Shown: positions 1-3,644 of the stretch, one piece after another
Numbering within the stretch: the stretch's first letter is position 1
Layout: every line of letters starts with the position of its first letter
NCBI GenBank assembly: GCA_038881635.1
Contig: JAVZPJ010000004.1
Span: 31,824-95,823, forward strand
Direction: 5' to 3'
DNA from: Sulfolobales archaeon
GTDB taxonomy: Archaea; Thermoproteota; Thermoprotei_A; Sulfolobales; AG1
DNA: 64,000 nucleotides
Program-made: the position numbers and the translations under genes
Notes under the pieces: model-generated
What the model was told of the DNA's origin: nothing
Databases searched by the model: none
Seen by the model: the letters and a program-made list of their open reading frames with translations, nothing else

Positions 1-53
1 TCTCTCGAGAGTTTCTATGTTTTAAACTTTCACGGAAATAGATAATTGAGATT

Positions 54-788
54 ATGAGTCTTTCAGTATCGCTTATAATACCCGCCAGGAATGAGGCTAG
101 ATCTATAGAGAGAGTTCTTAAGATATCTAGAAAGCTGAGAGAGGTCAGAGAGATCATAGTAGTTGATGGAGGTAGCAGTGATAGAACGCCTCAGATAGCT
201 GAGAAGCTCGGTGCCAGAGTTATATTTCAAAGTCTTTACAGGTATCCTGGCAAGGGTATTGCGATGAGAGATGGTTTCTATTATTCGACGGGGGAGATTG
301 TAGTATATGTTGATGCCGATATAAGGAATATATCTGAAGATTTTATAAAAAGCTTGTACCAGCCTATACTAGATGCAGAAGCAGACTTTGTTAAAGGATC
401 TTTCACTAGGAAATCTGATAGAATCACAGAACTCGTTGCAAAACCTCTTCTGAGAATACTCTATCCAGAGCTCATCAGATTCACCCACCCTCTAAGTGGA
501 GAGATTGCAGGACTTAGAAAATCTTTTGAAGTAGTCGAATGGGATCCTGGATGGGGTGTTGATATAGGGATACTTATAGACGTGTATAAAGCTGGTTTAA
601 AGATACTCGAGAAAAACCTAGGATTCAAAGATCATAAGATAAAAACTCCTGAAATGCTTACTGAGATGGCTTACGAAGTTGCAGAAGCTATCATAAGAAG
701 AGCTGTTAGAGATGGGAAGCTCACAGCTGTAGAAGCTGAGAAACTTCTGGAGAAATATCAGAATATAGATCTAGGTGGTGTGGATTGA
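54..788 (+). CDS. gpgS: GT81-family glucosyl-3-phosphoglycerate synthase-like glycosyltransferase
   Basis: A 244-residue cytosolic GT-A glycosyltransferase. The N-terminal nucleotide-sugar fold shows VDGGSSDRT (38-45 region), GKG at 66-68 and the metal-binding DAD at 87-89. The C-terminal half carries the block typical of GpgS enzymes: RITELVAKPLL, YPEL, HPLSGE (145-150), WGVDIGILID (167-176) and a His at 194 in the place of the usual metal-binding His. GpgS transfers glucose from a nucleotide sugar to 3-phosphoglycerate, the first step to the compatible solute glucosylglycerate. The sequence supports the GT81 family well; donor and acceptor are inferred. It starts a + strand cluster and overlaps the next gene by TTGA. 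A TATA-like gttttaaact lies near 18-27. Confidence 0.78.
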   Translation: MSLSVSLIIPARNEARSIERVLKISRKLREVREIIVVDGGSSDRTPQIAEKLGARVIFQSLYRYPGKGIAMRDGFYYSTGEIVVYVDADIRNISEDFIKSLYQPILDAEADFVKGSFTRKSDRITELVAKPLLRILYPELIRFTHPLSGEIAGLRKSFEVVEWDPGWGVDIGILIDVYKAGLKILEKNLGFKDHKIKTPEMLTEMAYEVAEAIIRRAVRDGKLTAVEAEKLLEKYQNIDLGGVD

Positions 789-1510
789 GATATGTAGTGG
801 TAGGATCCTCTCATAATACCTTTTTCATTTTGAAAGCTCTGAGAGAAGTAGATCCTGTGGGTGTAATATATGTTGTTGAAAGATCTCAGGAAGTCTCCAG
901 AGTTCTAGCATCTCAATTCAATCTAGTGCCACACTCTGGAAATCTCCTAGATCCATCTACATATGAGAAGATAGATGCTGGCAAAGCAGATGTTTTTATA
1001 GCTGCAACAGATTCTGATGCTCTGAATATTAGACTTATAGAGCTTATGAAGAGATCCTTTGGTATTCCAAAGGTTATAGGTGTTGTGAACAATCCAGCTA
1101 ACATAGATAAGTATAGAGAATCTGGAGCAGATCACATTATAAATCCTCTCGCAGGATTAGAAACAATGATCAAGGCATCTATAAGTAGCGATAAGTGGAT
1201 TAAGTCTCAGACTTCAGAATTCTTCGGAATAGATCTATATATAAATAGATTTGTTAAAAACACAGTATACGGGATCTCGATCTCAGTATTAAGAGATGCT
1301 GTTAGAAGATTAAATGATGTGCTTGTAGTGGTTATGAGCAGAGATGGAGAGATCATAAGAGATTCATCTTATGAGCTTTCAGAAGGCGACATAGTATTAG
1401 TAGTAGCTCCAATGGGATTAGGTGAGGAGGCTGTGAGAAGTATTGAAAGAACTATAGATCGTCTGAAGATCCTTAGAACAGGTGTTGAGAGTGGAGGTAC
1501 GAAGCTCTAG
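785..1510 (+). CDS. RCK (TrkA-N/TrkA-C) potassium channel regulatory protein
   Basis: A soluble 241-residue protein with an N-terminal Rossmann RCK domain (1 to about 120; the nucleotide loop is degenerate, VVVGSSHN) and a C-terminal TrkA-C domain (about 150-225, ending in ELSEGDIVLVVAP). Such proteins gate K+ channels or transporters in response to bound nucleotide or ions. No channel gene is adjacent, so the partner lies elsewhere or is the MscS-like channel two genes on. The start is TTG at 785, overlapping the stop of the upstream glycosyltransferase as TTGA, which implies translational coupling. The family call is firm; the physiological partner is unknown. Confidence 0.82.
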   Translation: MRYVVVGSSHNTFFILKALREVDPVGVIYVVERSQEVSRVLASQFNLVPHSGNLLDPSTYEKIDAGKADVFIAATDSDALNIRLIELMKRSFGIPKVIGVVNNPANIDKYRESGADHIINPLAGLETMIKASISSDKWIKSQTSEFFGIDLYINRFVKNTVYGISISVLRDAVRRLNDVLVVVMSRDGEIIRDSSYELSEGDIVLVVAPMGLGEEAVRSIERTIDRLKILRTGVESGGTKL

Positions 1511-2183
1511 TACTCATGCTAAAACTCTCTTCATAGATCTAGATCTCACGATCACGCGAGAGAGAGCTATAGATATTATAGCTAGAGAACTTGGCATAGA
1601 AGACATCGTTACACTCATACTGGATTCAAATGCTCCAGAATATGCTAAATCTAGTAAGATAGCTATGATGCTTAGAGGATATGACATAGACTATCTAAAA
1701 GACATAGTTTTTAGAAAAACTGAAATCAGAGATGGTGTGGAGAGACTTCTTAAAATAGCTCTAGATAAGGGTTATGAGGTTCATGTGATCTCTTTAACAT
1801 ACACACAATTCACTGAGGCTGTGATGAGAAAGATAGAAATTCTATATAAGATAGATTCTTCAATGATAAGGATTCACGGTCCTAAGCTAGAAGTTGGTCC
1901 AGATAATAGAGTGACGGGAAGAATTATAGTAGACCCTACTCAGAGGATTAAAACTAGTTTCTGCATCGAATGCACTGTGTGTAAGAGATTTCTAGTAAGA
2001 GTTTATGGTAATGGAAGGATTATATCGATCGGTGATGCAAGACCGGATGCATGCATGTTTCTAGAATCTCACTACTCAATAGGCGTTAGATCCAGATCTA
2101 CAAGAACCATAGTTAGAGTAAACGCAGATCTATTCATAGAAGATTTTAACAAGCATCTAGATAAGATATCTGAGGTTTTATAG
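1482..2183 (+). CDS. HAD-superfamily phosphatase (SerB-like, subfamily IB)
   Basis: A 233-residue haloacid dehalogenase-type hydrolase. Motif I is DLDLT (19-23, nucleophile Asp plus acid Asp), motif II is around HVISLT (101-106), and motif IV is GDARPD (184-189). It resembles phosphoserine phosphatases. A CxxCxxC cluster (Cys161, 164, 167) inside the core is unusual and may bind a metal. The ORF overlaps the RCK gene by 29 bases; GTG 1482, TTG 1485 and GTG 1491 are all possible starts. Lying in a GpgS-RCK-MscS cluster, it is a candidate glucosyl-3-phosphoglycerate phosphatase; that substrate is inference only. Confidence 0.72.
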   Translation: MLRVEVRSSSTHAKTLFIDLDLTITRERAIDIIARELGIEDIVTLILDSNAPEYAKSSKIAMMLRGYDIDYLKDIVFRKTEIRDGVERLLKIALDKGYEVHVISLTYTQFTEAVMRKIEILYKIDSSMIRIHGPKLEVGPDNRVTGRIIVDPTQRIKTSFCIECTVCKRFLVRVYGNGRIISIGDARPDACMFLESHYSIGVRSRSTRTIVRVNADLFIEDFNKHLDKISEVL

Positions 2184-2184
2184 G

Positions 2185-3009
2185 ATGCAAGAGCTTTCAT
2201 ACCTAGCAGTTCTTCATATACTCATAAGAGCTTTACTCGCCGTACAAGGTATCTCTCTAATACTTCCAAGCGATGTAATCCTAGGATATCTCTACAGAGT
2301 TATAGGTGCTTCAGTAGTTCTACTATTCGCATTTCTAATAGGAAGATACCTGGGAGTTCTGTTAGAGAGATTTCTAGTGAGAGTTGAAGAGGATATTAGG
2401 AGAAGAATAATCGATATAGGAAGGTTCTTAATATACTCGATAGGTATTCTCATAGCCATAGCAATACTCTCTCCAGAACCTTTCACATTCTCAGCACTTC
2501 TAATACTAGTAGGCTTAGGAGTAGTTATAGCTCTAAGCGATATACTGAGGAACTGGGGCTCTGAATTCTATATTAGAGTAACAAAACCATTCAAAGTAGG
2601 AGACTGGATAGAGATAGGAGGACGTGAAGGAAGAGTGCTTAAGATAGACTCTCTAGGAGTAGTTATTGAGAGTATTAGCAGAGAGAGGATCCACATACCT
2701 AATACTGTTATAGCTCGAGAGATCGTTGTCAACAGAACAACACCTTATGGAACAATATTTAACTTATACATAGAAGTTCCTTCAGATGTTGATGAAGTAT
2801 CAGCTCTGCAGTATCTAACCGATATAATGAATCGCGTGAGACCTGAGCTTGCTGACGAGCCTAGGATAAGTTATAAGGGTGTTCATGATGATAAATCAGT
2901 CTTCGAGATCTCTATAGTGCTGCTTAATGTGAGAAAGATAGGCGATATATATGCTCGTATAGCTAGAGATGTTGAGGAGAGATGGCCTAGAGCTAGGGTG
3001 AGGATGTAA
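2185..3009 (+). CDS. MscS-family mechanosensitive ion channel
   Basis: A 274-residue membrane protein with about four hydrophobic segments (about 8-27, 36-60, 78-95, 101-120). These are followed by the MscS beta domain, with the signature KPFKVGDWIEIGG and the IPNT turn, and an alpha/beta C-terminal domain. MscS channels open under membrane tension and release solutes on hypo-osmotic shock. The ATG sits one base after the stop of the HAD gene, so the two are almost certainly co-transcribed. This is the clearest osmotic-stress gene of the cluster. Confidence 0.88.
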   Translation: MQELSYLAVLHILIRALLAVQGISLILPSDVILGYLYRVIGASVVLLFAFLIGRYLGVLLERFLVRVEEDIRRRIIDIGRFLIYSIGILIAIAILSPEPFTFSALLILVGLGVVIALSDILRNWGSEFYIRVTKPFKVGDWIEIGGREGRVLKIDSLGVVIESISRERIHIPNTVIAREIVVNRTTPYGTIFNLYIEVPSDVDEVSALQYLTDIMNRVRPELADEPRISYKGVHDDKSVFEISIVLLNVRKIGDIYARIARDVEERWPRARVRM

Positions 3010-3032: not shown

Positions 3033-3644
3033 ATGCGTTTCGCGGTAGTTAGAGGGAGTACTTCTCTTAGAAGTATTTTAAAAGACCTCGAAGAATGGGA
3101 CTTACTAATACTCCTAGGACCTCTATCGAGAACACTATTGTTAGAGCAGAATCTTATATCGAGAATCTTTGATATATATAAAGATAGAGTTATTATAATT
3201 CCTTCATCATATGACGATCCTTCTGTGTATAGAATTATTGTAAAAGCATATAATGGAATAATATGCAGAAGAGAACTTAAGAGCAGTAGAATGATCATAA
3301 GATGCACAAGCTCTCTAAGTGATTTAGAGAGAATAATTAGAGATTCATGTCGGGAAGTGAGAGAGCTGGTGTTTATAGAGAGGTCTCTCAGAATAGATGA
3401 TAACCTAGGCGCAAGCTCCTGTGAAGATATTATGAAGAGAATCTTGATATATCATGGAACTTCTGGGAGTCCTGGAATAGTGGTTGATAGATTTCTAAAG
3501 ATATGGATTTCACATGGTGAAAGCGTGAGAATCCTAATAGATTATGATAGAAGATCTCTTAGGATAGAATTTCTTGAAAGAGAAGATTCTCATAGTAGAA
3601 GTATGAGACTTATAGCTCAAGTTCCTTCTATCTTAAAAGATTAA
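3033..3644 (+). CDS. Hypothetical protein, possibly a degenerate metallophosphoesterase fold
   Basis: A 203-residue soluble protein 23 bases after mscS, on the same strand and probably in the same operon. I do not recognise a family. DLLILLGPLS (23-32) followed by VIIIPSSYDDP loosely mimics the GDxx and PGNDD spacing of calcineurin-like phosphoesterases, but the metal ligands are missing. If related, it would be non-catalytic. No membrane segment or signal peptide is seen. Function unknown. Confidence 0.6.
   Translation: MRFAVVRGSTSLRSILKDLEEWDLLILLGPLSRTLLLEQNLISRIFDIYKDRVIIIPSSYDDPSVYRIIVKAYNGIICRRELKSSRMIIRCTSSLSDLERIIRDSCREVRELVFIERSLRIDDNLGASSCEDIMKRILIYHGTSGSPGIVVDRFLKIWISHGESVRILIDYDRRSLRIEFLEREDSHSRSMRLIAQVPSILKD

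Follow-up and report, generated by a model that had tools for sequence, protein, structure and literature searches.

A conserved glycosyltransferase–RCK–MscS gene core in Thermoproteota and its possible role in channel regulation

Genes for a GT81-like glycosyltransferase (GT), a single-RCK protein (RCK) and an MscS-family mechanosensitive channel (MscS) form a conserved core, variably accompanied by a HAD phosphatase gene (HAD), in an operon found at the start of a 64,000-nucleotide stretch of DNA (referred to below as the window) from a Sulfolobales archaeon. The genome analysed (G000; 18 contigs, 1.4 Mb, 97% complete) carries this operon on contig C4. We tentatively propose, with confidence a little below even, that the operon couples a solute-synthesis pair to an RCK-regulated MscS channel, with the GT also present in the channel assembly. 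With GDP-mannose or GDP-glucose as the probable donor, the GT would glycosylate 3-phosphoglycerate; removal of the phosphate by the HAD would then yield the anionic compatible solute mannosylglycerate or glucosylglycerate. Rather than serving a K+ transporter, the RCK would be the cytoplasmic control subunit of the MscS encoded by the adjacent gene. With the GT as a further member of this RCK–MscS assembly, the status of the solute (or of donor and acceptor) and channel opening would be linked. The substrate, the RCK–MscS contact, GT membership of the complex and the ligand sensed were inferred, not computed. Such a module would link osmolyte synthesis with osmolyte release at the gene level.

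Operon layout and conservation

The GT, RCK, HAD and MscS genes constitute one compact operon without real gaps (Table 1); open reading frames and profile searches confirmed the preliminary description of four overlapping or abutting genes with GT81, RCK, HAD-IB and MscS signatures. The small ORF is also found 3' of MscS in the congener G001 only (29% identity). The window start directly abuts the 3' end of a 503-base N run (L002:8498-9000), leaving the operon promoter region only partly readable (window 1-53). Beyond the N run, the opposite strand bears truncated glycosyltransferase-like reading frames.

Table 1. Features of the operon region in the window.
Feature	Position	Strand	Remarks
GT: GT81-like (GpgS/MpgS-type) glycosyltransferase	54..788	+	244 aa; profile, fold, tree
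RCK: single-RCK protein, TrkA_N and weak TrkA_C	785..1510	+	241 aa; TTG start; 4-bp overlap with GT
HAD: HAD-IB phosphatase	1482..2183	+	233 aa; GTG start; HAD motifs
MscS: MscS-family mechanosensitive channel	2185..3009	+	274 aa; MS_channel_2nd
Small ORF	3033..3644	+	203 aa; without family match; perhaps the operon's fifth gene in the genus

The GT–RCK–MscS order was found in 19 genomes of five families (18 besides G000); the genomes compared were mostly MAGs, and family labels (f3, f9, f21, f40 etc.) denote kinship. Neighbouring operon genes mostly overlap by 4 bp across the carriers, suggesting translational coupling, and the recurrence of the arrangement in 18 other genomes, mostly with such overlaps, indicates that the gene order is not due to chance. 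An absence of conserved linkage in relatives, which the preliminary description had named as one of two findings that would count against it, therefore does not apply. The GT was carried by just seven of the 214 genomes of the taxonomic order, with RCK and MscS directly downstream in all seven. Within an even draw of about 398 genomes of the phylum, a full-length GT of this clade was present in 16, plus one fragment, and most of these 16 carriers belong to families outside the window's class. All carriers in the draw displayed the GT–RCK–MscS order as far as their contigs extend; in G408, the contig stops inside RCK, and the remaining part of an RCK lies with an MscS on a second contig. A search of the same draw with the RCK profile recovered the same 16 genomes as the GT, each above 197 bits, with a drop to 101 bits for the next RCK. 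The conserved core is GT–RCK–MscS, and the HAD is variable.

A scan of named genomes with the GT yielded mostly ordinary GT2 matches and one true relative, Desulfurococcales archaeon EvPrim.Bin15 (G001), and no match was obtained in a scan of viral contigs with the RCK. Weaker GT81-like matches in G480, G491, G452, G535 and G506 lie outside such an operon. In G491 (L165:7707-10742), a different GpgS-like gene lies ahead of an asparagine-synthase-like gene and one for a HAD-IB phosphatase, forming an independent GT81 and HAD-IB neighbourhood. Neither RCK–MscS coupling nor this gene set was found described in the open literature searched, in keeping with the earlier statement that the four-gene set was not known to be described in Thermoproteota.

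The RCK protein and its pairing with MscS

The RCK matched TrkA_N (2.3e-17, 63.8 bits, cut-off 23.8) and, weakly, TrkA_C (17.4 bits, cut-off 27). It resembles TrkA/KtrA-type RCK subunits in its RCK N-terminal fold and TrkA_N match, but differs from them in the lack of TrkH in the genome, in having MscS as the partner gene and in the replacement of GxGxxG by GxxH. This loop reads GSSH in the window RCK, and GxxH was present in all the operon RCKs shown and GxGxxG in none, which suggests that the ligand may be something other than NAD(H). No TrkH, Ion_trans_2 channel or Kup was found in G000, the only TrkA_N protein of which is the operon RCK, and TrkH was absent from 15 of the 19 operon carriers; the search for K+ partners covered these three families.

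The MscS matched MS_channel_2nd (2.9e-11, 43.7 bits, cut-off 20.2). It shares the beta domain and pore-helix region of the small-conductance mechanosensitive channel MscS, but differs from known MscS in that its gene is paired with RCK in much of the phylum. Outside the GT clade, an MscS gene adjoins RCK in 55 of the 76 RCK loci examined across the phylum, a count that includes the protein X operons described below and refers to RCKs scoring against the operon profile, not to all RCKs. The chance expectation for this adjacency is about 1%, an estimate that assumes roughly three MscS genes in each genome. Given this excess and the lack of a tested K+ partner in G000, MscS is likely to be the partner of the RCK. 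The control of K+ flux initially assigned to the RCK was not borne out: G000 offers no partner from the K+ families tested, and the evidence favours MscS instead. The RCK–MscS pair looks like a general unit in Thermoproteota and, as most pairs have no GT, the GT is dispensable for RCK–MscS function in general. MscS is usually described as tension-gated; the presence of an RCK gene beside MscS in much of the phylum suggests chemical control besides membrane tension. No regulatory RCK-like subunit of MscS was found described in the open literature searched.

Two further arrangements were observed. At loci without a GT (L191-L195, L197-L263, L170, L171), RCK and MscS are oppositely oriented in some families, such as f31. 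G302 and G322 (L170, L171) contain TrkH–RCK–MscS clusters, in which the RCK has a canonical glycine loop, apart from the GT operon of the same genomes.

Degenerate glycosyltransferases and protein X

Two genomes of the same family as G000 (G002 and G004) have a GT–RCK–MscS operon without HAD. Their GTs have lost the equivalents of R185, T187 and H258 of Mtb GpgS, and that of G004 has also lost the metal Asp; in the tree, both are nested beside the window GT on a long branch. Comparison of G000 with the distant G303 gave 55% identity for the GT and 25% for RCK and MscS, whereas the GTs of G000 and G002 were only 42% identical, a value similar to those for RCK and MscS. Constraint on the GT has therefore changed in the G002 lineage.

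In 14 more genomes of the order (f3, f9), the GT is replaced by a protein of about 235 aa (protein X) that has no convincing match in Pfam, and the order X–RCK–MscS was found in 13 of 13 complete loci. Profile comparison of X with the GT gave a probability of 94% (E 1e-7), versus 0.1% for two control families, which were compared with a smaller X alignment. The best PDB matches of the X model (pLDDT 88) were GpgS, MpgS and MgS. X lacks the equivalents of the first DxD Asp, His258, Arg185 and Thr187, together with the Ser81 segment, and the RCK of X operons has lost the glycine loop. Purifying selection nevertheless acts on X (dN/dS 0.12-0.15, NG86), about as strongly as on the RCK and MscS genes with which it shares an operon. 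X is a relative of the GT and can be classed as a putative GpgS-fold pseudoenzyme. In quick trees of RCK and of MscS, both with long branches, the GT operons cluster with the X operons, and nearly all remaining RCK–MscS pairs fall outside this grouping. X sequences (L265-L277) also contain three or four conserved Cys/Asn positions (NxDSxC, NNxCxD). A same-clade RCK–MscS pair in G125 (f9; L242:2459-3939) has neither GT nor X upstream, perhaps through later loss of X.

These observations bear on a reading close to the preliminary description, a plain osmotic-response operon in which synthesis, RCK ion control and emergency release are co-expressed without contact between GT, RCK and MscS. Each part has a plausible separate osmotic role, and co-expression would fully explain the intact operons, but we consider this reading rather unlikely: the RCK has no known K+ partner among the families tested, RCK–MscS pairing occurs without any GT, and a plain synthesis-plus-release operon is insufficient because a GT without its active site and an RCK without its nucleotide loop stay with MscS. 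The single operon for solute synthesis, K+ control and release envisaged in the preliminary description thus stands as regards linkage, but not as regards K+; the HAD proved variable rather than part of the core, and the persistence of the GT beyond its active site is left unexplained by it.

The main rival explanation for this retention is that the eroded GTs of G002 and G004 and protein X continue to catalyse a reaction or bind ligands, but with a changed chemistry that dispenses with the metal or uses a different donor and acceptor. Some GT-A enzymes are active without a DxD motif, and both the purifying selection on X and the retention of Trp167 and of an acidic residue at position 170 in nearly all X sequences are consistent with such a change. 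We nonetheless regard it as quite unlikely, as X has lost the metal and acceptor residues and the Ser81 segment listed above, no new conserved acidic cluster was found in X, and the HAD has been lost too.

Under the channel-coupled module that we favour, solute synthesis explains the intact operons, and the simplest account of pseudo-GT retention would be an additional action of GT and RCK on the channel; we infer a non-catalytic role of the GT there. It is conceivable, if doubtful, that MscS is ligand-regulated across Thermoproteota, with a single-RCK protein as its standing subunit, and that a GpgS-type GT was added as a sensor or scaffold in one ancient branch, later becoming a pure pseudoenzyme. 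If true, RCK control would reach beyond K+ transporters and channels, and a glycosyltransferase would become part of a channel complex. The natural series of active GT, eroded GT and pseudo-GT offers a route to testing regulation of the channel by the enzyme.

The glycosyltransferase and the phosphatase

The GT matched Glycos_transf_2 (3.6e-21) and the NCBIfam glucosyl-3-phosphoglycerate synthase family NF010496 (3.5e-54, 184 bits), the latter below the 262-bit equivalog cut-off, as were the f21 GTs (208 bits). It scored far better against GpgS than against any DPM-type enzyme. Foldseek with the AlphaFold model (pLDDT 90) returned GpgS first (E 1.9e-20), with a TMq of 0.84-0.85 for Rubrobacter xylanophilus MpgS, and the C-terminus of the GT forms a SHOCT-like helical hairpin (residues 215-236). 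In the tree (midpoint root, long branches), the GT and mycobacterial GpgS were joined with 100/100 support, apart from other GT2 proteins. The GT shares with GpgS and MpgS the fold (TM up to 0.85 to MpgS), the DxD, the metal His and the Arg185/Thr187 acceptor residues, thus retaining the metal and 3-phosphoglycerate residues (D136, H258, R185 and T187 of Mtb GpgS), but identity is about 36% or less, the GT is shorter and its operon contains RCK and MscS. The equivalent of Asn260 of Mtb GpgS is not retained, and f21/f40 GTs have Arg aligned with the ribose-binding Glu54. The GT is a GpgS/MpgS-type enzyme, not a dolichol-phosphate enzyme, and the grouping with dolichol-phosphate mannosyltransferases named at the outset as the alternative placement was contradicted by the tree. 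A role in cell-surface glycosylation, with the GT transferring sugar to polyprenyl or dolichol phosphate and merely resembling GpgS, is very improbable. In its favour, such enzymes share the GT-A fold and appear among the secondary matches (AglJ, 8.5e-19; DPM synthase structure, 5e-10). Tree and profile reject the dolichol-phosphate reading, and both the 3-phosphoglycerate residues and an operon phosphatase of two unrelated types argue against such a role.

Certain GpgS residues have been linked to base choice, S81 being said to block guanine, and the guanine-binding MgS has Gln, Trp and Asp at its donor-site positions (PMC2581804). The GT has Gly, Gln, Trp and Asp at the positions of S81, R101, Y229 and E232 of Mtb GpgS, where GpgS has Ser, Arg, Tyr and Glu; the last three states match MgS, and the residues are identical in all 17 intact GTs. 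The Ser81/Arg101/Tyr229 pattern of UDP-glucose-specific GpgS is absent. From these residues, the donor is predicted to be a GDP-sugar, UDP-glucose not being the likeliest. The GT differs from the GT78 mannosylglycerate synthase MgS of Rhodothermus in overall sequence (22% identity), and MgS takes D-glycerate directly and needs no phosphatase. Profile, fold and tree thus upheld the GT81-type identity originally suggested, whereas the donor-site residues make a glucosyl product an unsafe assumption. The GT is probably a GDP-type member of GT81 from thermophilic archaea.

The HAD matched HAD-SF-IB (3e-10) and serB (8e-14), both below cut-off, and is not SerB by TIGR00338 (51.7 bits, cut-off 144). 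It has DLDLT, S104, K168 and GDxxxD, and the four HAD motifs (DLD.T, S/T, K168, GD...D) are invariant in the alignment. The unusual CxxCxxC reported earlier is present at residues 161/164/167; it is invariant in five HAD orthologs and directly precedes an invariant Lys (CxxCxxCK), probably the motif-III Lys. This segment may resemble the Cys–Lys motif found in HADs of the PHOSPHO1/MtnX type, the match to Put_Phosphatase being weak.

The HAD-IB family occurred in the operon location only, in five of the 22 genomes searched. In f21 and f40 operons, a HAD-IIB protein related to phosphoglycolate and sucrose- or mannosyl-phosphoglycerate phosphatases stands in its place, its gene overlapping the end of MscS. 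HAD and these MpgP/GpgP-type phosphatases have the same presumed reaction and operon place, but subclass IB with CxxCxxCK is a different HAD branch. That two unrelated HAD types fill one role argues for a phosphatase step accompanying the GT. This exchange, and the absence of HAD where the GT has degenerated, favour the proposal that HAD is the missing phosphatase; it is probably the cognate phosphatase of the GT and provides a named candidate HAD-IB sugar-phosphoglycerate phosphatase. Against this pairing, an intact GT occurs in G031, although neither its operon nor the rest of its genome yielded a HAD. This high-GC carrier (L036) also has a very divergent RCK and MscS.
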